A stretch of 37,981 nt of DNA from Ectocarpus siliculosus (Eukaryota > Sar > Phaeophyceae > Ectocarpales > Ectocarpaceae). A program made the position numbers and the translations under genes. The stretch lies in the NCBI GenBank assembly GCA_000310025.1, contig FN649736.1, positions 3,619,476 to 3,657,456 of the forward strand. Direction: 5' to 3'. Under the pieces are notes generated by a model, which worked only from the letters and a program-made list of their open reading frames with translations, was not told the origin of the DNA and made no database searches. Below are positions 3,516 to 27,193 of this stretch, in pieces; within the stretch, counting starts at the first letter, position 1; every line of letters begins with the position of its first letter.

Positions 3516-3765
3516 GAGTATTTGTCTAAGAGACAAATATTTGCACACGATTCTGAACGAGCATTTGTCTGGAGACAAATAATTTGCACACGATTGATTC
3601 TGAACGAGTATTTATCCGGAAACAAATAGTTGCACACATTCTGCCGAGAGTATTCGGCTGGGAACAAGTGCAAGAACAATTAGATATGAAACCTCATCCA
3701 GAGGGTGTTTGGCTGGAAACAAAACAAATACAAGAATAATTACATATGAGGCATCCAAAGTATTA
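3516..3765. repeat. Hairpin minisatellite, cluster 1
   Basis: About five imperfect units of 40-55 bases. The core of each unit is an inverted repeat, best seen at 3519-3539, where TATTTGTCT and AGACAAATA are separated by three bases. The core is followed by a spacer like TTGCACACGATTCTGAAC. The last two units (from about 3648) are strongly decayed. The same unit forms a second cluster at 4597-4890 in the same orientation. Confidence 0.75.
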
Positions 3766-4596
3766 GGGATGCATAGCGCCTCTTCTTACTTCTTCTCCGA
3801 TATTATGCGTCATGCGCATACGTAGCAGAGCACGGGCGTCGAAAGTCCCAGTCTAGAGGGAAGTGTTTGCGTGTGGTGATTGGACACACATACATACGGT
3901 ACAGCATTGTTCGGGTGACGCACGGGACAGATACATAGGTGATTCTGGCGCTGGCGCAAATAATTGATAGTTCTCCGCAGCAACCTGACGGTACGGGTTG
4001 GGCAAATTGCTCCGGTGTGCTTTCTTGTTCGGGAGTAGGTAGGGGAGATCGCTCTTGTCGCGTTCATTTACCTTTTGTCTAAAGTCAGAGATCGAGAGTT
4101 ACTACCTGTTTTTTCTGTTTAGACATATGAAGGGGGGGGCATCACGTGGTTGTTTTCACGCACGTGCACCCACTCCTCACTCCTCCGTCAATCAAGCAAA
4201 CTTCTAGGAAAATACCATATGGTTTCAGTTTATTTATCGATTTGCACTGAGTCTCTATCGAGCTCACATGCTACACGTGCTCTTTTTTATTTTTCTTAAT
4301 ATGACACCACGAAACCATCTCCATCATAGAAAAGAGTCTGAGACAGATTAGCAATGGATTCATAGCGTCAGAAAAGTACCTGTATGTCTACGATTTCCCA
4401 GACAGCATATAGGGACATCTCCCCTGCGGGTAACAGGCTCAACAAGACAGTTTGGTAGTTGTCTTGTGTGTCTCATATATGTTGAATTCTGAACTCAACC
4501 AGCCACCCAGGTTTCATACTTTTGACCAAGCACTTAAGGAATAATAAAAACCCACACAGAAAGACTACCCATTCGAGATATACCCACAGTCGAACC
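3766..4596. other. Gene-free spacer between the two minisatellite clusters
   Basis: No convincing coding frame is present. The segment is AT-rich in places (for example about 4210-4330) and has a short G run near 4133. Because it is flanked by direct copies of the same repeat family it could be the interior of a decayed element. No terminal inverted repeats, target-site duplication or transposase-like frame was seen. Confidence 0.4.
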
Positions 4597-4890
4597 AAGT
4601 ATTTGTTTGGAAACAAATACAACGGTAGTTTACACACGATTTTGACCCTGTATTTGTCTAGAAGCAAATATATGCGCACGATCTTGACCCAGTACTGTCT
4701 GGAGACAAAATACTTGCGCACGATCTGACCCAGTATTTGTCTAGAGACAAATATTTGCGCACGATTCTGATCCAAGTATTTGTCTAAGAGACAAAATATT
4801 TGCACACGACTCTGAACGAGTGATGGTCTGGAAACAAATATTTGCACACGATTCTGAACAAGTATTGGTCAAACCAAACAAATGGCGAAT
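4597..4890. repeat. Hairpin minisatellite, cluster 2
   Basis: About seven units of 41-45 bases, for example starting near 4597, 4648, 4690, 4731, 4774, 4818 and 4860. Units follow the pattern GTATTTGTCTAGAGACAAAT, then a spacer similar to TTGCGCACGATTCTGACC. The paired arms TATTTGTCT/AGACAAATA are kept in the central units while loops and spacers vary. Short open frames across this cluster on both strands are products of the repeat and are not genes. Confidence 0.8.
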
Positions 4891-9187: not shown

Positions 9188-11797
9188 CCCAGACTCCACG
9201 GACCACGGTTTCCCCCATCAACGACATTGTCGCTATTTTCCGCACCCACGAGCTTGATGCGCAGTTGTACCTTCCCCCGTTCTACCACACAGCGGTACCA
9301 CTATACCCAACTTTAATAGCGCTTCATGTTGAAGATTCCCCCCCACGCAACGCGATAAACCAGCCCATCCGCCACCCCTACGCTTTTCCTGTCATTCTTG
9401 CCGGGGCATGGTCACGCTGGACAGGTAGGATCGGCAGTCCTCCTGCTCAGTCGTTTTGTCGGTCTCCAATGGAACACCGACGAGGTTGTTGGCCTGGTGG
9501 AAGATAAAACCGCGTTGGCAAGCGAGGCTGTGGAACGACTCGCCGACAACGTCGGCACCCTTCAGCAGCGGTTGGCAATAGCGGAGGAAACCAACCTTGG
9601 GGGTACGAGGAGAGAGGCAGCAACCAGCATTGACGAGGCGCCTGTACCAGACGCTGCTTCAACGATGGTTGAGCAGGAATCTTGTTTCACGGAGGTCGGC
9701 GCGGGCTGCAACAGTAGCACCCCACGACGTGCCGCGGATGAAAGCACGCCGTCGATATCATCGCCGCCATCGTCGTCGTCGTCGTTGCCATCGTTGCCTC
9801 GAGATATTGACATGGGGGGTAGCACGCGCGGTCGGGTTGTGTCAGCCCCAGGCCGCCGTGAGGATGCTGAGGATGCTGAAAGCGCTGCGGGCAGCGGCGA
9901 CGAGGGGAAGCGAACAGATGGACAGCTTCTTCTGGACGCGGCTGGTGAGGGACACGGTGCGTCGTTGTCGTTGTCCCGGGCAAAGCACGTAGATGAGAGT
10001 GGGCAACAGCCATCCGCCAGCAAACTCCCGCCGCTGAGAAGGTCACGGGCTAGTTCAGTTGCCATCGACGATGGCGATGGTACTGGCATGGCAACAGCAG
10101 AACTACTACCGAAGGAAAGACAAGGGGGTCTGAGTAGGGACGAGGAGCTTGCTGCTGCTCCCGGTAATACCATTTGCAGTCGGGAGGAGATTGAGTCAGA
10201 AGATGCAAACACCAATGACAAGGGGGTGGCAAACCCACCCGTCGGCGCCGTAGAAGACCGAGCAGAAACAACAGCATCCGCTCGACAGAGTACAACCTCT
10301 GATCTGCAAAGGCTGGCAGCTGCTGCTGAAGCTGCTGATGGTGCTGCCGTTGCGACGAACGAGGAGAATGGTTCAGCGGGTCAGATGGCCGAGGATGAGC
10401 TGATGCGCGGCGGTAGAAGAGCGCAAAACGACGAGGTCAACGAGGTTGTGGAAAGGAATATTCACCCAGCTGGCGCCGTGAAGTCTAGTCAACGAACACC
10501 AGTACAACCAGCTCATGTACGCACCAGCTCCGAAATAGCAGTTGGGATAACCGGAGATGCTGTTTCTAATACGTCAAGGAAAGGGACTCTAGTGCCGATT
10601 CGGGACAGCAGTGGGGACGAGAAAGAGGAAGGGCAGGGAAGCGGTGAGGATAATAATGAGACGCCGACAGCGTCCAAGCGAGGAGGTGCACAGACAAACA
10701 TTGCCACACCATCTGCACCCCTTGGAACGCGCAAAAGGAGCTCTTCTTCGGGAAGGTTACTCGATCCTTGGGTGTCGACAGGGGAGACTTCAGCTTTGAT
10801 CGGGGAAAATGGGGAAACAACAAGAGAGATCAAAGGCAAGGACGAAGAGCAAGGTAGAATGGGAGAACACGACGGGGAACAACGTCAATCCAACCTCGCC
10901 GCCGGCGCAAATGGCAACGCAGAGACAACAGCTCCCATTAAAATTCAAGGTGGCTCTACTCTTCTTCCAAAAGAGTTCCGAGGACTAGCAGGTGAAACCA
11001 CTGGCGGGACCACACCAGGTGGCCGATCTAGTTCTCTAGACCCGGTACAACCTCGACCAACACAAGCTAGTGCATCTATCAAGCCGGGCTCTGTGGAAAC
11101 TCGGTCGATGAGCGCTGTTGGAGCGGACAATGCAAAGGACGCTTCAGAGACCGGAGACAAGTCTAACATAACTCACAACAGTGCGCCGCAAGCGGGGACA
11201 AGTAGTGTTCTCTCGAAGGAGGCGTGTCAAAGCCAGAGTATTCAATCCAACGAGGATGGGGGCAAGGAGCGATCGACACCACAAGTGACAGAGAGGGTAG
11301 CGGTGGCGACTGTGGAAGGGCTTAACAACAACAACAGTAGTGGGGGCGAGAGGGACGACAGCAGTCAGACATCGAGTGGTAGTAGCTTCACTAGTACGAC
11401 TAGTGACTCTCGGCGATCTTCTTTTTCCGGACAACAGAGCACGACAACGTCCACTGCCACTAGTTCTTCTAGCCGGACAAAGGCGAGCCGTGTACGAGTA
11501 GATAGCAGGGCAGCTAGTGGTGGCAGCAGCGACAGCGGGAGGAGGAGGGGGAGGCGGCGGTCAAGTTCAGCGTCCAGAAGGGACCACATCGAAGAAGTCG
11601 CTGTTACGGGAGGTGGCGGCAATCTTGGGTCGACAGAGGTTGACAGTGGGCTGTCCAGTTTTGCCCTTGACCGACCAAGAGAAGTATCTGATAAGGGAGG
11701 GGAAGCAGCAGACGGTGATACAGTTAGTGGTGGTGGTGGTGAAGGTGAAGAGGCAGTGATGACCCCTCGTTCGAAGACGGGTCATCGACAACAGTGA
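9188..11797 (+). CDS. Long disordered Ser/Thr/Glu-rich protein, N-terminus unresolved
   Basis: The main body is one open frame from about 9506 to the TGA at 11795-11797 (about 763 codons). It starts with a short coiled-coil-like segment (LASEAVERLADNVGTLQQRL), continues as very hydrophilic Ser/Thr/Glu/Gly/Ala-rich sequence with polyserine runs, and ends in an Arg/Ser-rich stretch (about 11,490-11,585, RRRGRRRSSSASRRD) and an acidic Gly-rich tail. No folded domain, membrane segment or catalytic motif was recognised. An upstream exon starting at 9188 after a CTGCAG acceptor is clearly protein-like (NDIVAIFRTHELDAQLYLPP) but is in another frame. One phase-compatible junction is an intron 9425-9503 (GTAGGA to AAG); an indel or a different junction is also possible. 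The true start codon was not found. The RS-like tail suggests a nuclear or RNA-linked role, which is inference only. Confidence 0.55.
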
Positions 11798-13847
11798 CAG
11801 GCCACTCAATCGGGCGAGGCACAGTCCTCGGCTGTGATGAAAACACCACATACATCTGGAGAAAACCCGGCTGCCGGCGCGGATTATGTTCGAAGATAGC
11901 CCAGACTTCCTGCATTCTCGAAGCTTTTGTCGTGCTTAGTTCGGAGGATTGGGGTCCTTACCCGGAAGCAAAACGCTGACTCCAAGTGTTGCCGCGGCTC
12001 CTCTGCTTAGGTCGGAACTCAACATTGATTGACTGGGGATGCTTCCCGTGTTGTGTTTGAATGTTGGACGCCCTTCATGTGGCACCGTCTACTGTATGTA
12101 GCTCGAGGTACCCCTCAGCCCACAATGGATGTTTCATGACGCGAGACAAAGAGTTGACAGCCATTTGCACTACAAACTGAAGATTCACACGGAAAGAGGG
12201 GCAGCTAGCTGTTGTTATCGCTGGCTGGTGTGCTGAAGAGCTGGTGAATAAGCCTAGGCTATTTGGTTGGGCTAAAAGAAATGCTGAACGAGTTCCGAGA
12301 GCAATCATTCCAATCCTTCCACTGGAGCAATCATTCCAATCCTTCCACTAGTGCAATCAGTATAATATACGTGGTCCGCCCGATGGTAATAGTAGTCATC
12401 TATTGTAGGTTGGTACTCCCGTCGTTTTGGCAGTCTTTCGCGGTCCGGGAGGGGCATCCTCCCCGCAAACGAGGGGATGTTCATTGGGGTGGCACTCGAG
12501 GAACTGCCGTACATAGTATGCATAGACTACTCCTCTCTTTTCGAATCACAAACCTCACGCCGCCAAAAAGAGAGGAGGAGTACTACATTGTCTAGATTTG
12601 TACCGGGGGAGCAGGTACTCCGGACTGATGTACACAAAAACGAACATCTGTGAAGGTTCTACTGTACACCACACACGTACTTGATATCGATCATGGATCT
12701 ACAGCAGTACATGTGTGTGTCGGCTACCGAGAAAGGTCTCCTTTTCGTTCTATATAATTTATCTTGAGCAGACACCCTCTTTCGTTCTCTTCACAAGATC
12801 CAAGGTACCATTGGTACACGTCTATACAGCCTCGTCTCCCTTACGCTGTACGCAGTGTAGACTGGCCTACAGCACGTAGTTTACTGTACTGTCCTCTTCG
12901 ATATCTTGGATCTTCCCGAAAAAAAATATCCAGGGAGATGTAACGGTAAAAAAATCTGCGGAACCTCAGACCTGTAAATAGGTCTGCGAGACGAGACCAG
13001 ACCGACAACCACAACCAGGGAGTGCACAGGCCCGGACAACGTAAGGTGTATGGCGTTCCAGACGGGTCACGATTCCTACTGGAATGGCCCTTCAAGCCCT
13101 GTTTGTCGGCGAACGCTGCAGCATACAGACCAGGTGCATTTATAGCGAAAGAGGCGTAGGTGTGCGGCTACATGTGTGAATGTACTGACTGTAGATTCAG
13201 ATTCACACCGTCATTCGACCGCACACAGCAAGGGTAGCCTGAGTACGAAGCGAACCGCCGAGATTAGAATACGTGTAGTCTGCGAAACAATCCTGCCTCT
13301 AGCCTGTGATGTTTCGTCGGACTGTCCAACAAGTTTCCCACGCCCGCACACACTAAAAAAAAAAAAACGACTTCCCAAAGGCACTGAGCACACCTCGGAG
13401 GTGGAAAGGACATGCACTCGAGAGGTTCTCGTGTTGGCGTATTCTCCTGCATTCGACTGTCCAATTGAGTCTGATACGAAGTAGTTCGAATGTAGAAGCG
13501 AAATACTTATGTTTTTGAAGCCAGAAAAAAAGTTGCGTTTACGCGCCTGTGTCATCAAACCCGCGAGTCGGCTTATATTACGACGCTGTACACCGCCGTA
13601 CACACCACTTGGAACTACAATAGGTTCTAGGTTTAGCGCGTGATTTGGTGCCGAGAGCGATGCCGTATTCTCCTCCTTCTCGACGGAATAGGGGACAGCT
13701 TAGCACATCGCGATCGTCCAAGGTGGTAAGTGAGAGCGCTGCCCTTTTCCGCTTCGAGATGGTCTTCGTTGCTTGTATGTACAACAGCTAGCTGTGTTGA
13801 TCGACAAGAGACTACGTTGTGACAACTTGCTGTTGATTGTTTCCTAC
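11798..13847. other. Intergenic sequence with a 26-base tandem duplication
   Basis: No supported gene. At about 12302-12353 the block AATCATTCCAATCCTTCCAC is duplicated in tandem with a period of 26 bases. A near-palindromic stretch lies near 12660-12725. A-rich runs lie at 12918-12926, 12948-12954 and 13356-13368. Open frames here are short and overlap on both strands. Confidence 0.35.
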
Positions 13848-13920: not shown

Positions 13921-14108
13921 CTGGAGTCAGGTGCACGACCGGAGACACATGCCCTCGTCTATCCACCTTGCTTGTCCGTTCATCTTGCGTTGGGCTTCAA
14001 CGACAGAACCACACTCCAAGGGAAGAAGCTAGGCCAGCAAGTAGTCCGCTACGGTCTTACGCCAAAGGGAAAAACTCACTTTGGCTTCTCAACTCGGACA
14101 CGTACAGG

Positions 14109-14288: not shown

Positions 14289-14538
14289 GCCACACACCTT
14301 CTACCTCTTCATTCGCCACTGCGCAGTGCCAAAAACCGAGTAGCATTTTTGTTCCCCACCCTGGTAGCGTGAGTGAGAGGATTCGTCACAACAAGAATGC
14401 CGGGAAAACCAAGAAGCCCAAACGATAGCCTCTGAAGCCCAACACACCTTCTATGCTCGGCTGCTCAACTGAAGCTACCAACGAATATTGTTTTCGCATG
14501 ACAATTTTCCTCTTCTCAAATGAAGCAGTTCTGTGACG

Positions 14539-17500
14539 ATGAAGATGCTGATCGAGAAACAAGCGGCGGCGGCGGCTTCCCGCCTCAACAGTCCCTCGCG
14601 CCTCGAGGCCTTTGCTGCGGACTCGCCCCCGCATCGTCGCCGCCCGCGTACCCCCACAAAAGTGGGCAGCGGCGGCGGCGGCGGTGGCCGCGGCGGTCGG
14701 AGTGACAGGAGTGATGATCGGGGTAGGGCCCCGTCCCCTTCTCCCCGACATACATCTCCCGGAGGCGGGATCGCGCTCTCCGAGTTAGTTTCAGCAACAA
14801 CCCCTCCGAGAAGACGGTCTTCGGCGATAAAGTTTGATGCCAGTGGTGGGAATGAGGGTGCGGAACTCCGTCGGTCCTTGGCTCAGGAAACCTACACCAA
14901 AACGTTCACTGGGATGCAGGTACAACGTGATAGCCTAGAACACCAGTGATGCGTGCGTGATCAGGCATTCGCCGGCGTACTCGTCGCAATCCCTATCCAT
15001 GCACCAGTGGGTGCACCAACTGACATCGATGACGGGGTCAATGTGATCGAACAATTTTGCCCGGGCAATGACCACGTGCGGATATTTAGGGCTGCGTTGT
15101 TGCGTCAGGTTTGATCCCTCAGGTACGCGCAGTGAAGACCATGTAGACGTAGAGGTCCACTTTTAGACGCGGAGGCAAGTATCTCCTCTGGCCTCGCGCT
15201 GGGTGTCGATTAGCTTTCCTTGCTGTCGTCGTTGCCTCCCCTGCACGCTCCAGGCGTATGGTGAAAGCGGGATGACGGTCTTGGAGGAGCTCATCGATGC
15301 TGCGTTTCGCGCATGCGACATTGGACATGCTCAGGGACAGCAAAGAGTCACGGGCGCGGCTTTGCTAACACGATCTGGGAAGATGTGAGAATCCCGTAAC
15401 GATTCGTATAGCGACACATCGTGTACACGTGTTGGAATTTCTGCGGCGAAGACAACAACACGGGCATTTGGCCATGCTCATAGATCTTGTGGTTCGTCGT
15501 TCAAATACCTCGCGAAGTCAACAGAAAAACAAGGACGGTTGTGACCAATGTACATAAGAAGCAGCAGTGGTTCGGGGAGACAGCCCTGAACTTGTACCAT
15601 CGAAACACAACCCTTATTTTCACGCTCGCATACCCCGTCCCCCACGCCAACCTACCAGCTTCGCCGGATGCAACGTAGAGTCCTCATCGGTGGACCTCAG
15701 CGTCGGGGCAGAGCGCACAACCGTGCTCAAGGCGGTCAGCGAGGGCGAGACTCGGTTCCGATCGATGGCCATGGCGAGCGACACGGACCTGGGCTTTCCG
15801 TCCCCAGACGGGCCCGGGCGGCAGTTCCTTGCAGAGTTCGGCGAGTTCCCCGTGTACCTCGTCAACCGCGACATGCAGGTACGCTGTACTCACGGGGGAG
15901 GGGGTTAAAAACACGTGAGAAGTCCACATGATGAGAAAGAAAAGGAACCAGTGACAAGCGGAGAGCTGGTCGATAAGGGGAAAGGGGGTCGGAACGCGGG
16001 AATGAATATGCAGCCGGCAGGAAATAGTCTGAGGCGGGAAACTAGAACGTCGAAATACTTGACAAAAACTCACTATTCCTTACTAACGGAACGGACGAGC
16101 CAAAGGGATTCACTGCCGAAAAAGGCAAGTTGTCAAGCAGGAGAAATTCGGGATTCAGGAGGGTGGGTGGGCAGGGGAGAGACTTTCTACGCTGAAAACC
16201 TGCCCGCGGCGTGTTAATTTGATAGGTCTGGAACTGGCGCCGTAAGTGACCAAAAATGGTAAGAAATCACGTTTTTCTCCTTCCATCCCTGTCAACACCC
16301 CCTTTCCCCGTGACATGGGCCATGTTACATGAACCATTTGCGCTTTGCGCACGTAGGTGAAAATCGCGTCAACGGGCGAGCTTTATCCCATGATGCCTCC
16401 CGGCCCTGTCGACGGGAAAAGGAGGGGCTTGGGGCCAGGCGAGGGGCGGGACGAGGCAATCGTGGCGGCAAGTCGAGAGAGAGAAAAGCGTCCAGCGCGG
16501 GAGTGGGGCGTTCAAGAGGTCAGAACCAGTCTCGTGGGAAGGAGGAAGTAGGGTTTCAAGGGTTGTTTTGGACTGGAGGAAATCAAAGCACGCAGACCAC
16601 ATCCGCGTAGTTGTGCCGAACCCAATACGGGGTATTCCTAGTGAGAACGGAGGAAGGTGGCAGTTCGATATGCTTGTTGTTACGTCACCGCGCGCCCAGC
16701 AGTCACTACAACCGCCTTCGCATCAAGCCAGAACACGGCTCTTGTGTGTCCTGTACTTTGTAACCGATAACATCTTGACTGACCACAAGATGTTCGATGG
16801 TTCGAAGCGCAAACGGTATGTTTTTTCTCGCGTGCGGGGACAACACCATGTTGTTACGACCATTAGTTAGCACGATGCAAGGAAAAGCACAACCTAAGTC
16901 AGCAAACACCACGAGCTTTTCACCTGCGCCTTGCCATAACATGCAGGTGCTAGACTGGCTGGAAGATGAGCTGGAGCTGGGAGAGTACCGGAGGGAGTTT
17001 GCAAGGGCAAAGGTGGATGGGGCCCTTCTTCTCAACCTCGAGGTCGGTGCCTTGACAACAATTGTGTCGGAACATGTACTAGGTTACGCACTAGCTTGCT
17101 GTGCGATTGAACAGCAAAGTCACTGCTGCAGGACGTGATGGGCTGTTCGCACGGTTTCAGAGGCGGAGAGAACGTGCAATGAGGGATTCATGGCATTGCA
17201 AAAGGGCACACCAAGGGAAGATAACGTAATGTAAGCCAATCCATGATCCCCCCGGTATCACCGATCCAGCCCTGGGGATGACACCCCTCTCCGGGTTCGC
17301 CCTCGAAAGAGTGACTGTCTACGATGAAGCACCAAAAGCGACATTTTGTACACTTCACATCCCTTCCCCCGCGCTCCCAATCCTATCCATGATCGTTCCC
17401 ATTCGACGTTTGGGTCCTTGCGAGCGAAGGACAAAGACCTGCATGACATGTTAGGCATTGAACATCCGCTACATCGCAGAAGAGTGTGCCTCGGGATACA

Positions 17501-20500
17501 GAAAATCAAGGACAAGGAGGAACAGGAGGTACGCAAGCAATGGTAGCCCGCGTGTTCATGTCCTCTCTCTTGGCCGCCTTGGCATCGTTTGTCTCACACC
17601 AGCTTGTTGGCCGATCCTATCCTTGTCCTAGGGCGGAGGGCGTTTATGTTGTTGAAAGTGGCGCTCGACCACAAACAAGACGGCATGGCCACGAGACCAC
17701 CATTCGAGGGCCAACTAAAATTAAGCAAGCGTTTGTGGCGAGTATTGCAATATTCAGAGGTCGATTTCGAGCTGACCGAGTCACAAACGACAGTTCTTGA
17801 GGCCGAGAGAAGAACATTACAAATCCTATGCAGCACCAGTCTCCAGGAGAGGAGAGGGGGGCACTCAGGTTCCGTGGTTCCGCACGTACACCTCCGTCCT
17901 TGCTTGTTTCTTTTGAAATTTCACAGAGGAAGTTGAGCAATGGCTTAACAGATCGCCTTGGGTGCATGCAAGTCACTTGAAGAAGTGAGACCCCTATCCT
18001 GATTATATTTTCTTAGTGGGACTACTACGCAAAACGCATGCGATACGACAAACACGAACACCTTAACCCCCTCCCTCATCTTGCGCCATTGATTCTGGCA
18101 CGGCCTGCGCGACGACCTCGTTCGCATGATCGGTCCAGCAGATGGGCAAGAACTACGCCGACATGGACGACTACGTGAAGCGCTTAGACAGAGATCGCGT
18201 CCGCCTCGTGACCAAGCTCAAGGTAAAGGGTTCATATGTTCAGATCGTGGGACACATCGCCTTCAGAAAACAACTACGCCAGCGCCGTCGTGAAGGAGTT
18301 TTCTTCCTGGTGCCGCGTTCACGAAAGCCAACCAATACATTTCAACACGAGTTAATCAACTATAGTCGCAAGTGCCTCTTCCTACCCTCACATTCGCAAA
18401 AACAATTCGACGACACACGTACCGCCCGCTCCACCCCTTTCACTATGTTTTGGTCATATCCTAATCCCAACTGCAGGTGGTCTTCGACCGCTTCGACAAG
18501 AGCGGAGGGGGTACCATATCGACCGCCAACGCGCGCGATGCGCTGCTGTACATGGGTCGCGACGTCACCGGGGAGGCGTGCGCCTCGTGGCTGGCGGACA
18601 GGGAGAGAAATCGGGGCGATGGTGGGGGCCAGAGCGGCGACATATCATTCGTAGACTTTTCTACCGCGTGAGTGACCGAAGGGGATGATAGCGTCGCAAC
18701 ACCACCACTCGGAGGCCATGAGATGACGGGCTTGCCGCGTCAACGATGTTGACCTAAGAAGTGTTCCGCTGACGTAAAACACGTATCGATACTTGAAACG
18801 ATGGACGCAGCCGTACACTAATTGGGTCCGATCTTCCATTGCGGCATGCGAACACAACTTGTTCCAGGTACTCTGCTCTTTTCGCCGATGAGGACCCAGA
18901 TATTGACTTAGGTGAAAGACGGGGACCCAGGGGCGGTCCCAAGGAGCAGGGCGTATCGGTAACGGGGTCAGGTCATGTCCGTCTTAGGCAGAAGTCGGCC
19001 CAAGGTCGCGGCGACGGGGCACACGGGTCGTGGGCGCCAGGAAGTTCCGAGGACGAGCAAGGGTTTCGGACTGGGAGCAGAAGGCATTCACCCCATCGAA
19101 AGGTGATACAGCACGTCGAGTTTAGCAGTAGAAGCGCAAATCGCATTAGAACAGCAGTGCAGAAGGAACAGTTTAATATCCACAAGATGGCAGCAAATTT
19201 TTCTCGGTAGAACTTTTCTATTCGGTGCGGCAATGGGCCGTGATTCGCCAGTGCGTCGACGCTCAGAACGCAATCCACATTGCGTCGAGCTGACGTACGG
19301 CGAAATTTCTTTGTTCTGCGGTTTTAGAAAGAAAAAAGTGGTCAGTCAACAGAATTCCCCAACCCATTCTGCCCCTCTTGGCTAAACAAGGGCACCTGAA
19401 TCTGGAGCAGGAGCCAATCTACCGTTTAAATAACATGTTATAACTCACGATGTTGGTTTTTGTCACCCGCGAACGCCTTTCCATGTACTCTCACTAATCG
19501 CACCGAATCCTCGGCCTTCAAACCGATCGATTCGTGTCCGCCGAACCTGCTCATGAAGACCCCCCGAGGAGGCGGTGGCGAGGACGCCAGCAACGACGGA
19601 GACGATCACTACCGTGAGAATGCTCAAGCTGAGGCCTTCGAAGCCCTCCGATCGGTGAAAAAGCTGGCAGAGGTGAAGCGCGTGTTTGACCGGTTCGCCG
19701 TGGACGGCATGCTGACCGCCTACGAGGCCCTGCAGGCGCTAACAGAGGCTGGGTGCACGGCACCCAGGACGCACGCTGGACGATACCTGCGCTCTCGGCG
19801 CTTCTTCGGCTTGCGCAGAGAGGTGTGCTTCCGGGGGGGTTGACAGTCGCCTTCTCAGGAGATTTGAGGGGCGCGAGTGGTTTGGGGATGGTGGGAGCAC
19901 TTGTTGAGGGGAAGGTTGTTTTCTTTCCTTTTCATGGTTCCCTCACCTGGTTCTTCGACGACCAACAGACAGCGTCGTTTCGCAATGGAGCGATGGAAAG
20001 CGCCTCATGGATTCTCATGCCTTGAGCGGATGCTCATGCCATGCGAAGCGTCTACCAACTATTGGCCTATTTTTTTTCCGCTCGGCTAGCCTTCAACCCA
20101 TTCCCGGAACGTGGGACGTTTCACACTAGCCGAACTCCCGATTTACGCGCCTAACGACCCAGGTGACGTTCTTCGAGTTTCTGCGATCGATGGCCGCGCT
20201 CGGAGTCCACGATTCCGGGGCACACGTTGCCGGCTTTGCGCCAGCGATGATACCTCTGGGCGGCGGTGGCACTAACACCCCATTCAGAGCCCGCCATGGC
20301 AGTCGAGGACGGAGAGACGACGACGACGACGACGACGACGAGTACATGAGCGTCACTGGTAAACGTGGAGGCGGCAGAAGTGGCAGCCGCAGGCGAACAA
20401 GGCGGCGAGGACGCTCCGGAGAAGGAAGAGCCTACGGCGACGACGACGAAGACCAAGAAGGTTCCACCAGCACGAGCGCTGACGACGAAGACGACCGACA

Positions 20501-23500
20501 CCGGCGCAGCCCAGCCCCTCGGCGGGGAGTATCGCCTAGAAGGAGCGTGGGGGCGGGGGGGATCAGCCGCGGGCGAGGGCTCGGTAGCGGTAGCGGCGGC
20601 GGCTACGGCGAGACGAGACGCTCTAGGTCGGCGTCGAGAAAGCGACGTCCCAGCTATTCTCCCCGGAGATCAAGGGGCCGGTTGGCGGAGTCGGGCGGAA
20701 GTAGTTCCGATATTGAGGAGGACAACGACGGCCCTCCCTCCCGGAGAGGAAGACGAGCCATGGGGCACAAGCGCGACAAGCATGGGTCCAGTAGGTGCAA
20801 AAAATATGTTCAAGGTTTGATGCAACGTGAAAAATGGTCGGGAGTTCCCCCTGCAGACGGGTGCAGGTTGCAGGTTATCTTCGAAAGCAGAAATCAGTCA
20901 GGCTGTGAGTATTGTAGGTGAATACGTGCAGGCGTGCGGGTAGATACATCCGATGAACGGCGCGCCGTCCTTCCTACATTTCGGCCACAGAATTTCTCTA
21001 GTACGCGTTCCTGCGACCATTCTTCGTAGCGCACTTGTGATGAAGTCGCGCGCGCTTGGACCACGTTGTTGAGGCACACGGCACTGTAGCACTCAGAAGA
21101 ACAGCGCGTCCGAAGGTGGCCGGCATTTAGTCCAGACCATGCGCCTCACATCGTTTTCCAAGAGCACTTACCGTCCCCGCTAGGTCTCACCGAAAACGTG
21201 CCATAAGTGCGTCGTGTTGATCGCACCCGTGCCACCTCTGCTGCTGCTCCTGGTGGAGCAGGTCACGGTACGGGCGGGAGGGTGGAAAAAGATTGCCATC
21301 CGACGAGAGCGACACCGGTGGTGACGGTGACCGAAGTGACGGCAGCGCGTTCGGAACCAGAGGTAGAGGTCGTCGCGGCAGTGTGCCGCAGGAGGAGCGT
21401 GATGGTCGCGAGCGACAGCAAACCAGGAGCCGCGGAGGGGGTCGTGAAACCGAGGACGACGATCACGACCGCACCCGCGACCGAGATCGACACCGGGATA
21501 AGCATCGTGCCGGCGGTCGGCCTACAGACCGCGATAGACCGAGGGAGAGAGAGAGCGGGCGGGGTAGCGGCAGCGACGGGGCAAGGGCGCCAAGTTCGGC
21601 CAGGTCTCATCGCAAGGCGAGCTCGCCTAGCGGGGACGCGTCGAATGAAGGGCGAAGTGGCCAAGAAGCACGAGGCGGGCCCGCTAGCAGCTTTACCCGT
21701 GGAGATAGAGTCGAGGCGAGATATCGCGGTCGTGGTACAAAGTTCTACAAGGGCACCATCTCCAGAGTCAACAGCAACGATACCGTCGATGTAGCATACG
21801 ATGATGGAGAGAAGGAGATTAGCATTGCGACAGAGCACGTTCGATCTTTGGAGCCAGGGGCAAGTGGCGGTGGCAGTAGGACGAGAGGAAGCACCATGGC
21901 TAGGGGAGACAGAGTAGAAGTGAGGTACCGCGGGAAGGGAACCAAGTTCTACAAGGGCAAGATCTCACGCGTGAACTCCGACGGCACTATGGACATTTCG
22001 TATGATGATGGTGAGAAAGAGATTGGGATTGCAGAAGAGCATGTTCGATCTTTGGAGCCACAAGCAAACGCAGGTGGTGGCGGGGGGAGGGGCCTCACAA
22101 TGGCCAGGGGAGACAGAGTCGAGGTGAGGTACCGCGGGAAGGGGACCAAGTTCTACAAGGGCAAGATCTCACGCGTGAACTCCGACGGCACTATGGACAT
22201 TTCGTATGATGATGGTGAGAAAGAGATTGGGATTGCAGAAGAGCATGTTCGATCTTTGGAGCCACAAGCAAACGCAGGTGGTGGCGGGGGGAGGGGCCTC
22301 ACAATGGCCAGGGGAGACAGAGTCGAGGTGAGGTACCGTGGGAAGGGGACCAAGTTCTACAAGGGCAAGGTCTCGCGAGTAAACTCCGATGACACCATGG
22401 ACATAGCCTACGATGATGGTGAGAAGGAGATTGGGATTGCGGCGGAGCACGTTCGATCCTTGGAGCAGTCAACCAGTGAAGGTGGCCGTGGTGGTAGTGG
22501 TAGAGGAAGGGCCCCGACGTTGGTGGAAGGAGACAAGGTCGAGGCCAACTTCCGAGGTCGAGGGAGGTTCTATCCGGGACGAATCGGCAGGGTCAACTTG
22601 GACGGGACCTTCAATATCGACTATGACGACGGTGAGAAGGAACGCGGGGTCACAGACGATCTGATCCGGGCCAGCGATCGAGGAAGCTCTCACCGCGATG
22701 AGGGCCGAAGCGGGGGAAGCGTCAGGCTCGAGAGGGGAGACAGAGTCGAGGCGAGATACCGTGGAAGGGGGACCAAGTTCTACAAGGGTAAGATCTCGCG
22801 AGTCAATTCCGACGGCACGTTCGATATTTCCTATGGTGATGGTGAGAAGGAGATTGGGATTGCGGCGGAGCACGTTCGATCCTTGGAGTCGAAAAACAGC
22901 ACAGGCGACAATGACGTGAGAGGAAGCGGGATGGCCAGGGGAGACAGGGTGGAAGCGAGGTACCGCGGGAAGGGGACCAAGTTCTATAAGGGCAAGATCT
23001 CGCGAGTCAATTCCGACGCGACTTTCGACATAGCCTACGATGATGGTGAGAAGGAGATTGGGATTGCGGTGGAGCACGTTCGATCTTTGGACCGACCAAC
23101 CAGTGCAGGTGGGGGTGGGGAGAGGCGGGGAAGGCTCGAGAGGGGAGACAGAGTCGAGGTGAGGTACCGCGGGAAGGGGACCAAGTTCTACAAGGGCAAG
23201 ATCTCGCGAGTCAATTCCGATGACACCATGGATATAGCCTACGATGATGGTGAAAAGGAGATTGGGATTGCGGTGGAGCACGTTCGATCTTTGGACCGGC
23301 CAACCAGTGCAGGTGGCCGTGGTAGGGCGGGGAGGATGGCCAGGGGAGACAGGGTCGAGGCGAGGTACCGTGGAAGGGGTACGAAGTTCTACAAGGGCAA
23401 GATCTCGAGAGTTAACTCCGACGCGACTTTCGACATAGCCTACGATGATGGTGAGAAGGAGATTGGGATCGCGGCGGAGCATGTTCGATTTTTGGACCGG

Positions 23501-26500
23501 CCAACAAGTGCAGGTGGGGGTGGGGAGAGGCGGGGCAGGCTCGAGAGGGGAGACAGAGTCGAGGCGAGGTACCGCGGGAAGGGAACTAAGTTCTACAAGG
23601 GCAAGATCTCGCGGGTCAATTCCGATGACACCATGGATATAGCCTACGATGATGGTGAGAAAGAGGTTGGGATTGCGGTGGAGCACGTGCGGTCGTTGGA
23701 GACGCAAACCAACACAAGCGATAGTGACACGAACGGAAGCAGGATGGCCAAGGGAGACAGGGTCGAGGTGAGGTACCGTGGGAAGGGGACCAAGTTCTAC
23801 AAGGGAAAGATCTCGCGAGTCAATTCCGACGCGACTTTCGATATATCGTATGACGATGGTGAGAAGGAGATTGGGATTGCGGCGGAGCACGTGCGGTCCT
23901 TGGAGCAGTCAACCAGTGCAGGTGGCCGAGGTGGTAGTGGCAGAGGAAGNNNNNNNNNNNNNNNNNNNNNNNNNNNNNNNNNNNNNNNNNNNNNNNNNNN
24001 NNNNNNNNNNNNNNNNNNNNNNNNNNNNNNNNNNNNNNNNNNNNNNNNNGGTAGTGGTAGAGGAAGGGCCCCGACGTTGGTGGAAGGAGACAAGGTCGAG
24101 GCCAACTTCCGAGGTCGAGGGAGATTCTATCCGGGACGAATCGGCAGGGTCAACTTGGACGGGACCTTCAATATCGACTATGACGACGGTGAGAAGGAAC
24201 GCGGGGTCACAGACGATCTGATCCGGGCCAGCGATCGAGGAAGCTCTCACCGCGACGAGGGCCGAAGCGTTGGAAGCGCCAGGCTCGAGAGGGGAGACAG
24301 AGTCGAGGCGAGGTACCGCGGGCGGGGCACCAAGTTCTACAAGGGCAAGATCTCGCGGGTCAATTCCGACGGCACGTTCGATATTTCCTATGATGATGGC
24401 GAGAAGGAGATGGAAATTCCGGCGGAGCACGTGCGGTCTTTGGAGCCGCAACGAAACGCAGACGAAAATGACCTGAGAGGAAGCGGAATGGTCAGGGGAG
24501 ACAGGGTGGAGGCGAGGTACCGCGGGCGAGGAACCAAATTCTATAAGGGCAAGATCTCGCGAGTCAATTCCGACGCGACTTTCGACATAGCTTACGATGA
24601 TGGCGAGAAGGAGATTGGGATCGCGGTGGAGCACGTTCGATCTTTGGACCGGCCAGCCAGTGCAGATGGACGTGGTCCGGGGAGGAGGGCTTCGACGTTG
24701 ATGAAAGGGGACAAGGTCGAGGCCAACTTCCGAGGTCGGGGGAGATTCTATCCGGGACGAATCAGCAAGGTCAACTTGGATGGGACCTTCAATATTGACT
24801 ATGACGACGGTGAGAAGGAACGCGGGGTCACAGATGATCTGATCCGGGCCAGCGATCGAGGAAGCTCTCACCGCGACGACGGTCGAAGCGAGCAAACCAG
24901 CAGGCTCGAGAGGGGAGACAGAGTCGAGGCGAGATACCGCGGGCGGGGCACCAAGTTCTACAAGGGCAAGGTCTCGCGAGTAAACTCCGATGACACCATG
25001 GACATAGCCTACGATGATGGCGAGAAGGAGATTGGGATTGCGGCGGAGCACGTGCGGTCCTTGGAGTCGGCACCCAGCCCAAGTGGCCGTGGTGGTAGTG
25101 GTAGAGGAAGGGCTCCGACGTTGGTGGAAGGAGACAAGGTCGAGGCCAACTTCCGAGGTCGAGGGAGGTTCTATCCGGGACGAATCGGCAGGGTCAACTT
25201 GGACGGGACCTTCAATATCGACTATGACGACGGTGAGAAGGAACGCGGGGTCACAGACGATCTGATCCGGGCCAGCGATCGAGGAAGCTCTCACCGCGAT
25301 GAGGGCCGAAGCGGGGGAAGCGTCAGGCTCGAGAGGGGAGACAGAGTCGAGGCGAGATACCGTGGAAGGGGGACCAAGTTCTACAAGGGTAAGATCTCGC
25401 GAGTCAATTCCGACGGCACGTTCGATATTTCCTATGATGATGGCGAGAAGGAGACGGAAATTGCGGCGGAGCACGTGCGGTCTTTGAAGTCAGTTGAGGC
25501 CGCAACTGGTGAGAGAGGAAGCGGGATGGCCAGGGGAGACAGGGTCGAGGCGAGGTACCGCGGGAAGGGAACCAAGTATTACAAAGGCAAGATCTCGAGA
25601 GTCAATTCCGACGACACATTCGACATAGCCTATGATGATGGTGAGAAGGAGATTGGGATCGCGGTTGAGCACGTTCGATCTTTGGACCGACCAACCAGTG
25701 CAGGTGGCCCTGGTCGGGGGGAAAGGATGACCAGGGGCGATAGAGTCGAGGCGAGGTACCGTGGAAGGGGGACCAAGTTCTACAAGGGCAAGATCTCGCG
25801 GGTCAATTCCGATGACACCATGGATATAGCCTACGATGATGGTGAGAAGGAGATTGGGATTGCGGTGGAGCACGTGCGATCGTTGGAGCCGCAAACCAAC
25901 ACAAGCGATAGTGACACGAACAGAAGCAGGATGGCCAAGGGAGACAGAGTCGAGGTGAGGTATCGCGGGAAGGGGACCAAGTTCTACAAGGGCAAGATCT
26001 CGCGAGTCAATTCCGACGCGACTTTCGATATATCGTATGACGATGGTGAGAAGGAGATTGGGATTGCGGCGGAGCACGTGCGGTCCTTGGAGTCGGCACC
26101 CAGCCCAAGTGGCCGTGGTGGTAGTGGTAGAGGAAGGGCTCCGACGTTGATGGAAGGAGACAAGGTCGAGGCCAACTTCCGAGGTCGAGGGAGATTCTAT
26201 CCGGGACGAATCGGCAGGGTCAACTTGGACGGGACCTTCAATATCGACTATGACGACGGTGAGAAGGAACGCGGGGTCACAGATGATCTGATCCGGGCCA
26301 GCGATCGAGGAAGCTCTCACCGCGACGAGGGCCGAAGCGGGGGAAGCGTCAGGCTCGAGAGGGGAGACAGAGTCGAGGCGAGATACCGCGGGCGTGGCAC
26401 CAAGTTCTACAAGGGCAAGATCTCGCGGGTCAACTCCGATGACACCATGGACATAGCGTACGATGATGGTGAGCAGGAGATTGGGATTGCGGCGGAGCAC

Positions 26501-27193
26501 GTGCGGTCTTTGGAGCCACAACGAAACGCAGACGCAAGGCTCGCGTCTCGGAGCAGGAGCCCGACCACCCGTCAGGGGCGAGATGACAATGCAAGCGAGG
26601 ACTTTGCCGAGGGTGATAAAGTGGAGGGGCGTTTCCGCGGACGATCACGCTGGTTCAGGGCAACGGTGGAAAGGAAGAACAGAGATGGAACGTACTGGCT
26701 TGTTTATGCCGATGGGGACGAGGAACGAGCGGTGGAAAACAGCCTTATTAGAAGACTTCGAGGCGATGGCGGTGGTGGTGGTGGCAGTTCCGCAGTCGCA
26801 TCGCCAACAAGCCGCTTCAAAGCGATGGCTGGTCGTGTCAGCGCGAGAAACACGATAGACGATGAGCAGGTGCCGTCTCGCCGAGGTATACAAGGCAGAG
26901 AACCAAGCTCCAGCCGTCGTGATAGCGGAAGAGGATCGAGGTACGATTCTGAAAACGGTGTCGACGATGGTGACGGTCCGACGCTTCTCGAGGGTGACCT
27001 TGTAGAAGGCAACTTCCAAGGCCGGGGGCGGTTTTACTCTGGGCGAATTAGTAGAATCAATCTCGACGGCACGTTCAACATCGATTACAAAGATGGCGAG
27101 AAGGAGCGGGGGGTGAAGAGGGAAATGATTCGCTCCGTCGACAGCATTCCTGCCGGGGCACGCCGAAGTCGAAGAGGCGGTAGCTACCAGTGA
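14539..27193 (+). CDS. Giant SAM / EF-hand / Tudor-like-repeat protein (about 2,807 aa, 12 exons)
   Basis: Exons, all with GT-AG introns and matching phase: 14539-14919, 15254-15384, 15659-15878, 16357-16518, 16947-17042, 17430-17528, 18142-18222, 18477-18667, 18868-19102, 19559-19822, 20163-20794, 21262-27193. The ATG at 14539 follows an in-frame TGA at 14521; a second ATG is at 14545. Residues 1-290 are basic and Ser/Pro/Gly-rich with no known fold. Residues about 292-362 form a SAM domain (LDWLEDELELGEYRREF, then DMLGIEHPLHRRRV) split across two exons. Residues 391-460 carry an EF-hand-like unit (FDRFDKSGGGTISTANA) and residues 570-635 a second degenerate one (VFDRFAVDGMLTAYEAL, then VTFFEFL). 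Residues 640-975 are an Asp-run and Arg/Ser-rich linker. Residues about 977-2791 are 25 visible Tudor-like repeats. There is no signal peptide or membrane segment. Likely role (inference): an intracellular, possibly nuclear, multivalent scaffold binding methylated ligands. The length is a minimum because 100 N interrupt the array. SAM, EF and repeat assignments rest on motifs read by eye. The least certain boundaries are the acceptor at 19559, the donor at 16518 and the weak acceptor at 17430. Confidence 0.82.
20315..20343 (+). repeat. GAC trinucleotide tract encoding an Asp run
   Basis: A (GAC)n tract in exon 11 of the giant gene encodes eight consecutive Asp followed by Glu. It sits between the EF-hand region and the Arg/Ser-rich linker and is a likely length polymorphism. 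Confidence 0.85.
21698..27142 (+). repeat. Coding tandem array of Tudor-like repeats, two classes, period about 204 bases
   Basis: Twenty-five copies are visible. Class 1 (18 copies) follows GDRVEARYRGRGTKFYKG, then a strand like ISRVNSDGTFDISYDDGEKE, then an EHVRSLE helix. Class 2 (6 copies; positions 5, 12, 15, 17, 22 and 25) follows GDKVEANFRGRGRFYPG, INLDGTFNIDYDDGEKERGV-like strands and a DDLIRAS end. Copy 24 is divergent (GDKVEGRFRGRSRWFRATVE). Each copy keeps aromatic residues at R(Y/F)RG, (K/R)FYxG and (S/A/D)YDDGE, consistent with the five-stranded barrel and aromatic positions of Tudor/Agenet-type domains. Linkers are Gly/Ser/Arg-rich, about 14-18 residues. Copies 2 and 3 are nearly identical in DNA, and blocks around 10-13 and 20-23 share the same order of linkers and classes, so the array also has higher-order duplication. 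Confidence 0.92.
23950..24049. other. Assembly gap (100 N) inside the repeat array
   Basis: Exactly 100 N, the usual placeholder for a gap of unknown size. The left side ends in the linker GGTAGTGGCAGAGGAAG and the right side begins with nearly the same linker, GGTAGTGGTAGAGGAAGG. The reading frame happens to continue across the placeholder. The true number of repeats is therefore unknown; the gap may hide whole repeat units or be an unresolved overlap. Confidence 0.97.

Follow-up and report, generated by a model that had tools for sequence, protein, structure and literature searches.

The stretch of DNA analysed here, called the window in the following, comprises 37,981 nucleotides of the brown alga Ectocarpus siliculosus (contig FN649736.1, positions 3,619,476–3,657,456). 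It harbors on its forward strand one large gene whose predicted product consists of a cytidine deaminase (CDA)-like domain without zinc ligands, a SAM domain continued by a long helix, two EF-hand-like pairs, a charged linker and an array of at least 25 Tudor-like units. We regard this anatomy, i.e., a single gene that joins a pseudo-CDA to an array of reader-type modules, as very probable. The chain is established from the sequence and from its relatives, and the folds are taken from AlphaFold models of two relatives. A first-pass annotation of the window had already described one gene coding for a scaffold-like chain of reader-type modules. This view is upheld by the sequence, the two models, the domain order shared among relatives and the purifying selection on the units; however, the whole CDA-like domain preceding the SAM domain had been overlooked.

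By placing the splice sites by hand we obtained 12 exons between positions 14539 and 27193 with GT–AG borders and matching phases, which give a single frame of 2807 amino acids (aa). The 12 phase-consistent exons of the first-pass annotation are thus retained, but the gene begins further upstream. As the N-terminus of P0018 (2681 aa), a gene model deposited for a different Ectocarpus, matches two upstream exons and an earlier acceptor at 14529, translation probably starts 59 residues before the methionine chosen originally. Coding exon 1 (MPYSPPSRR..., 13660–13725) agrees with the N-terminus of P0018 except for one substitution and is followed by the donor gtaagt; exon 2 (NHTPREE...LLNSDTY, 14007–14107) has GT–AG borders, is in phase and also matches P0018; and exon 3 extends from 14529 to 14919, making the ATG at 14539 an internal methionine codon. 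With these additions the full model has 14 exons and about 2866 aa. Since P0018 is 97.9% identical to the window model across 756 N-terminal columns, the gene model is more than a product of chance. The residue numbers of the domains refer to the 2807-aa model, in which the frame across an assembly gap of 100 N (23950–24049) is assumed. At a tandem acceptor (CAGCAG, 18130–18145) P0018 has one additional Gln ahead of MGKNY, and two splice forms are possible.

The CDA-like domain (residues 119–262, 14893–16410) is distributed over the exons 14529–14919, 15254–15384, 15659–15878, and 16357–16518. It has the fold of a CDA but lacks the three zinc cysteines of the motifs CAE and PCxxC, having GAE and PDxxG instead. 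In the stretch GAERT (15705–15719) the first zinc cysteine is replaced by Gly with the catalytic Glu retained, and in PDGPGRQ (15804–15824) the cysteine pair is changed to Asp and Gly. Because all three zinc cysteines are replaced, deamination would not be expected from this domain. A sequencing error is ruled out, as close relatives show the same replacements. Compared with the tetrameric cytidine deaminases (human CDA, 1mq0; B. subtilis, 1jtk) the window domain thus differs in the replaced zinc ligands and in being fused within a chain of about 2866 residues. The dimeric CDA of the E. coli type contains a C-terminal non-catalytic domain (Pfam dCMP_cyt_deam_2) which keeps the CDA fold without zinc, and the window domain resembles it in matching PF08211, though weakly (E 0.001, below cut-off). 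In the E. coli-type enzyme the dead domain has a live partner within its own chain, whereas no second CDA domain is seen in the window chain.

The zinc site was compared in 25 rows, namely the window and 24 of its 27 matches (see below); P0004, which begins after the SAM domain, and P0024 and P0025, whose architecture is not common to the family, were left out. The PDG stretch is found in 20 rows, the catalytic Glu in 24 and the first zinc cysteine in four, and the cysteines of PCxxC are absent in 23, both being retained only in P0014 and in P0016 from Phytophthora; these are counts of sequences and not of events, several rows being near-duplicates of one genus. In a tree of 23 of these rows (P0022 and P0023 are too short) P0014 and P0016 form one clade with a support of 100/100. 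Placed outside this clade in the midpoint-rooted drawing are the zinc-less P0015 and P0017, of which P0017 has a very long branch, and as the root is arbitrary a single loss of zinc in the family is at most suggested. The pattern is valuable in that the change from enzyme to pseudoenzyme can be located in a tree: the zinc site persists in the clade that includes the Phytophthora row and not in the other rows. Zinc-less relatives that a source labels as cytidine deaminase are probably misnamed.

When the genome was searched for a tetrameric CDA with TIGR01354, only this gene matched, below the cut-off. PF00383 gave matches at three places other than this gene: one ORF (open reading frame) of the type HAE..PCSKC and two weak ones. 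With these two profiles no canonical CDA was found elsewhere in the genome, although a CDA divided among small exons could escape such a search. The short deaminase-like HAE..PCSKC ORF (L037, 1492–1842, forward strand, genome C16) lies in an ORF-dense stretch of viral appearance, which resembles the inserted virus of Ectocarpus chromosome 6 as described in PMC7784034.

The SAM domain (residues 289–358, 16489–17513; exons 16357–16518, 16947–17042, and 17430–17528) had been proposed before and is borne out by its fold and by PF00536 with E=4.8e-13 over residues 293–357, above the curated cut-off. In the models of both relatives its last helix is extended by ∼54 residues, which distinguishes it from the SAM scaffolds polycomb Ph/Scm, DGK-delta, Shank, and SARM1. 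The long helix and the first EF-hand-like pair occupy residues 359–468 (17514–18910; exons 17430–17528, 18142–18222, 18477–18667, and 18868–19102; PF13405 E 0.0009, below cut-off), and the second pair, which is without loop, occupies residues 563–636 (19649–20210; exons 19559–19822 and 20163–20794). The two degenerate EF-hands of the first-pass annotation may stand insofar as both models have two helix–loop–helix pairs at EF-hand-like positions, but by sequence they are weak and devoid of a canonical loop. Calmodulin chains match the first pair weakly (E 2e-5) and the one match of the second pair in the PDB is troponin C (E 0.68); the fold-match lists are filled by CDA and SAM rows and their coverage ends outside the EF-hand-like parts. 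The calcium loop of an EF-hand has 12 residues with acidic ligands and a Glu at position 12. The loop-like stretch of the first pair, DKSGGGTISTAN, has Asn instead of Glu at position 12 and a loop is missing altogether from the second pair, so that calcium binding is not supported for this species and a calcium switch is rejected. Because the loop of P0005 fits the canonical pattern, the brown-algal proteins may have lost an ability to bind calcium; P0014 has additional canonical-looking loops.

The second EF-hand-like pair is followed by a low-complexity linker of arginine–serine (RS), acidic and Gly character (20211–21679) with 22 RS/SR dipeptides in 320 residues. It is mostly of low confidence in a relative's model and probably disordered. 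The basic stretch that closes the exon of the RS linker (20640–20794) is present in the window model and absent from P0018, which could reflect alternative splicing or a model error.

The last exon (21262–27193, stop codon 27191–27193) carries 25 Tudor-like units (21695–27145), 18 of the type GDRVE..KFYKG, five of the type GDKVEANF and two others at 26612 and 26993. PF18359 matches 23 stretches of this exon with E=1e-91, above the cut-off, and the units have five strands each in the models of the relatives. At least 25 repeats within 5.9 kb had been claimed earlier; this number is recovered, but the exon is interrupted by the 100-N gap, whose flanks are similar to each other and which may contain zero or additional units. 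The unit count is for this reason a minimum. The units were aligned with 24 of the 25 included, unit 3 being identical in protein sequence to unit 2 over the unit. By profile, PHF20 (E 1e-4) and PHF20L1 are the closest solved chains, with weaker matches to KDM4C, CG7008, SGF29, 53BP1, and KDM4A; the SETDB1 Tudor and AGDP3 are also among the matches of the Tudor-like part. Four aromatic columns are present in all 25 units. The 18 units of type A have a synonymous divergence pS of 0.44 and a nonsynonymous divergence pN of 0.068 (pN/pS 0.154), and the six units of type B have 0.34 and 0.063 (pN/pS 0.183), all as pairwise averages computed without a tree and with unit 24 excluded. Overall the units appear to be old and subject to purifying selection, whereas some copies are recent, as units 2 and 3 share an identical protein sequence.

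A second giant Tudor-array ORF of 1767 aa with 18 units of the same profile is encoded in L044 (409–5712, reverse strand; genome C27, about 3.539–3.544 Mb). Unlike the window gene, this ORF showed no CDA or SAM domain when inspected by eye. A third stretch with ∼7–8 Tudor-like units lies at a contig end (L045, 10–1561; genome C153).

Three protein searches, each of which scored the best ∼8,000 candidates, gave 16, 14, and 5 matches, together 27 distinct proteins besides the window, and the family figures are accordingly lower bounds. The named sources are Ectocarpus species, Scytosiphon promiscuus, the pelagophyte CCMP2097 and Phytophthora pseudosyringae; the others are metagenomic or unnamed. 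No named match came from outside the stramenopiles among these candidates, and the family might be more widely spread. A CDA-like domain, a SAM domain and Tudor units occur in one chain in 15 of the 27 matches (with an incomplete SAM domain in P0026 and one that is not a precomputed Pfam match in P0012), the remainder being fragments or lacking one part. Among the 15 is P0005, 1309 aa on a contig of 4236 bp; as this leaves almost no space for introns, the linkage is independent of splicing guesses. The same order is seen in the pelagophyte, in the Phytophthora protein and in unnamed relatives. Judged by sequence, the family is not restricted to brown algae and the window protein represents an expanded form within a stramenopile family. 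The unit profile counts 25 units in the window, 24 in P0018, 26 in P0026, 17 in P0027, 31 in P0028, 10 in P0011, six in P0005, five in the pelagophyte, two in P0017 and one each in P0006, P0009, P0012, P0014, and P0016; in nine other matches, several of them fragments, it finds none. The domain combination had been thought to be undescribed, and no description was found among the matches listed for the open-licence literature, where an earlier mention is possible. The family apparently lacks an earlier description.

Comparison with P0003 from Scytosiphon gives 97% identity for the CDA-like domain, 97% for the second and 79% for the first EF-hand-like pair, 89% for the SAM domain, 81% for the short linker between CDA-like and SAM domain, 71% for the N-terminus and 49% and 44% for the two long linkers. 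The dead CDA-like domain is therefore among the best-kept parts of the protein, as is the second, loop-less EF-hand-like pair in the family, and the EF-hand-like pairs are retained in position in most full-length relatives. A conserved pseudoenzyme in the N-terminal half adds to the interest of the gene beyond its Tudor array.

We suggest that the protein is a multivalent reader scaffold. The cytidine deaminases related to the pseudo-CDA are oligomeric enzymes, and the pseudo-CDA and the SAM domain might join several chains. The charged RS linker could serve as flexible spacer and nuclear address, and the many Tudor barrels would bind methylated lysines by avidity, probably on histones, so that the scaffold would cluster or compact marked chromatin. 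A chromatin target is plausible, among other facts since a Tudor domain is reported on an Ectocarpus Gypsy element in PMC12477816. The protein would then be a candidate reader of Ectocarpus chromatin with its unusual H4K20me3/H3K79me2 marks. The mechanism of a nuclear methyl-lysine scaffold is proposed tentatively, at slightly below even confidence, and the explanation as a whole, a stramenopile family of scaffold proteins in which CDA-like domain, SAM, long helix, EF pairs, linker and Tudor units follow one another, we consider evenly balanced. Several points weigh against it. The models are those of relatives and not of the window protein, methyl-lysine binding and nuclear location are predicted roles, and the matches of the SAM domain comprise polymeric as well as non-polymeric SAMs. 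The matches of the units to Tudors in the PDB are weak and partial, covering about residues 15–39 of the unit. When one unit alone is the query, the top ranks go to designed beta-trefoil proteins (E 0.0013–0.008) and CPAP stands above the Tudors, and with the unit profile CPAP scores near PHF20; the sequence match to Tudors is for this reason not strong alone. The four aromatic columns might belong to a cage of the methyl-lysine type, but the fifth cage position, Tyr in 53BP1, is Glu in the window units.

The linkers between the units contain 54 RG/GR dipeptides in 434 residues, which would equally suit methyl-arginine binding or a ribonucleoprotein (RNP) granule and leave room for the latter role. 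In such an RNA or RNP-granule scaffold the units would bind methyl-arginine, perhaps in their own RG-rich linkers, and form a condensate like Drosophila Tudor in germ granules. The RS-rich spacer would fit, and multi-Tudor proteins are needed for germ granule assembly according to a 2025 Drosophila preprint (PMC11956945). Against this, in P0028, the relative with 31 units, the linkers are, by eye, Ser-rich and not RG-rich, and the nearest solved Tudors (PHF20, PHF20L1, KDM4, 53BP1) are mostly methyl-lysine binders, with a chain labelled CG7008 (2wac), of the SND1 type, matching less well (E 0.051). We regard the granule role as unlikely. The retained catalytic Glu and the missing genome match to another tetrameric CDA by TIGR01354 would also be compatible with a sensor that binds a pyrimidine nucleoside or nucleotide without deaminating it and thereby controls scaffold assembly. 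So would the GCNVE stretch, in which the brown-algal rows retain Asn and Glu, residues that contact the ribose in human CDA. However, several zinc-less relatives (e.g., P0006, P0008, P0013) have lost this pair, so nucleoside binding through it is not a family-wide role, and we think a sensor rather improbable.

The positional retention of the EF-hand-like pairs and the canonical-fitting or canonical-looking loops of P0005 and P0014 could point to a calcium-responsive cytoskeletal or flagellar scaffold with Tudor-like barrels for non-methylated partners. The degenerate loops of the window protein speak against it, and in a small test of the literature, including PMC3652789, there was no link to flagella; this explanation appears distinctly improbable. 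Finally, a CDA–SAM–EF gene and a Tudor-array gene might have been joined wrongly, as the array is confined to a separate large exon and the deposited models may have prediction errors in common (P0027 carries an additional N-terminal stretch, and parts of CDA and SAM are missing from P0026). Since the domain order is preserved within single chains of the relatives, including P0005 with almost no space for introns, we reject two genes as highly improbable.

The reader scaffold which we favor has partial parallels among known proteins. PHF20/PHF20L1, 53BP1, and KDM4, which contain the solved Tudors nearest to a single window unit by sequence, have one or two Tudors each. Drosophila Tudor and related multi-Tudor scaffolds share with the window protein the many modules per chain, but the latter has at least 25 short units of the PHF20/53BP1/Agenet type and in addition the CDA-like domain, the SAM domain and the EF-like pairs. 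The highest Tudor count known for one protein is 11 as stated in the 2025 preprint (PMC11956945), and the window array more than doubles this number.

Upstream of the gene, an 812-aa Ser-rich ORF without Pfam match is found at 9359–11797 on the forward strand. Its residues 22–77 are 73% identical to residues 39–94 of P0027, in which this region is fused upstream of the CDA–SAM–EF–Tudor chain, either as a merged gene model or as a further 5′ extension of the gene. Still further upstream (3516–4882) there are two arrays of AT-richer tandem repeats of ∼42–47 bp each.
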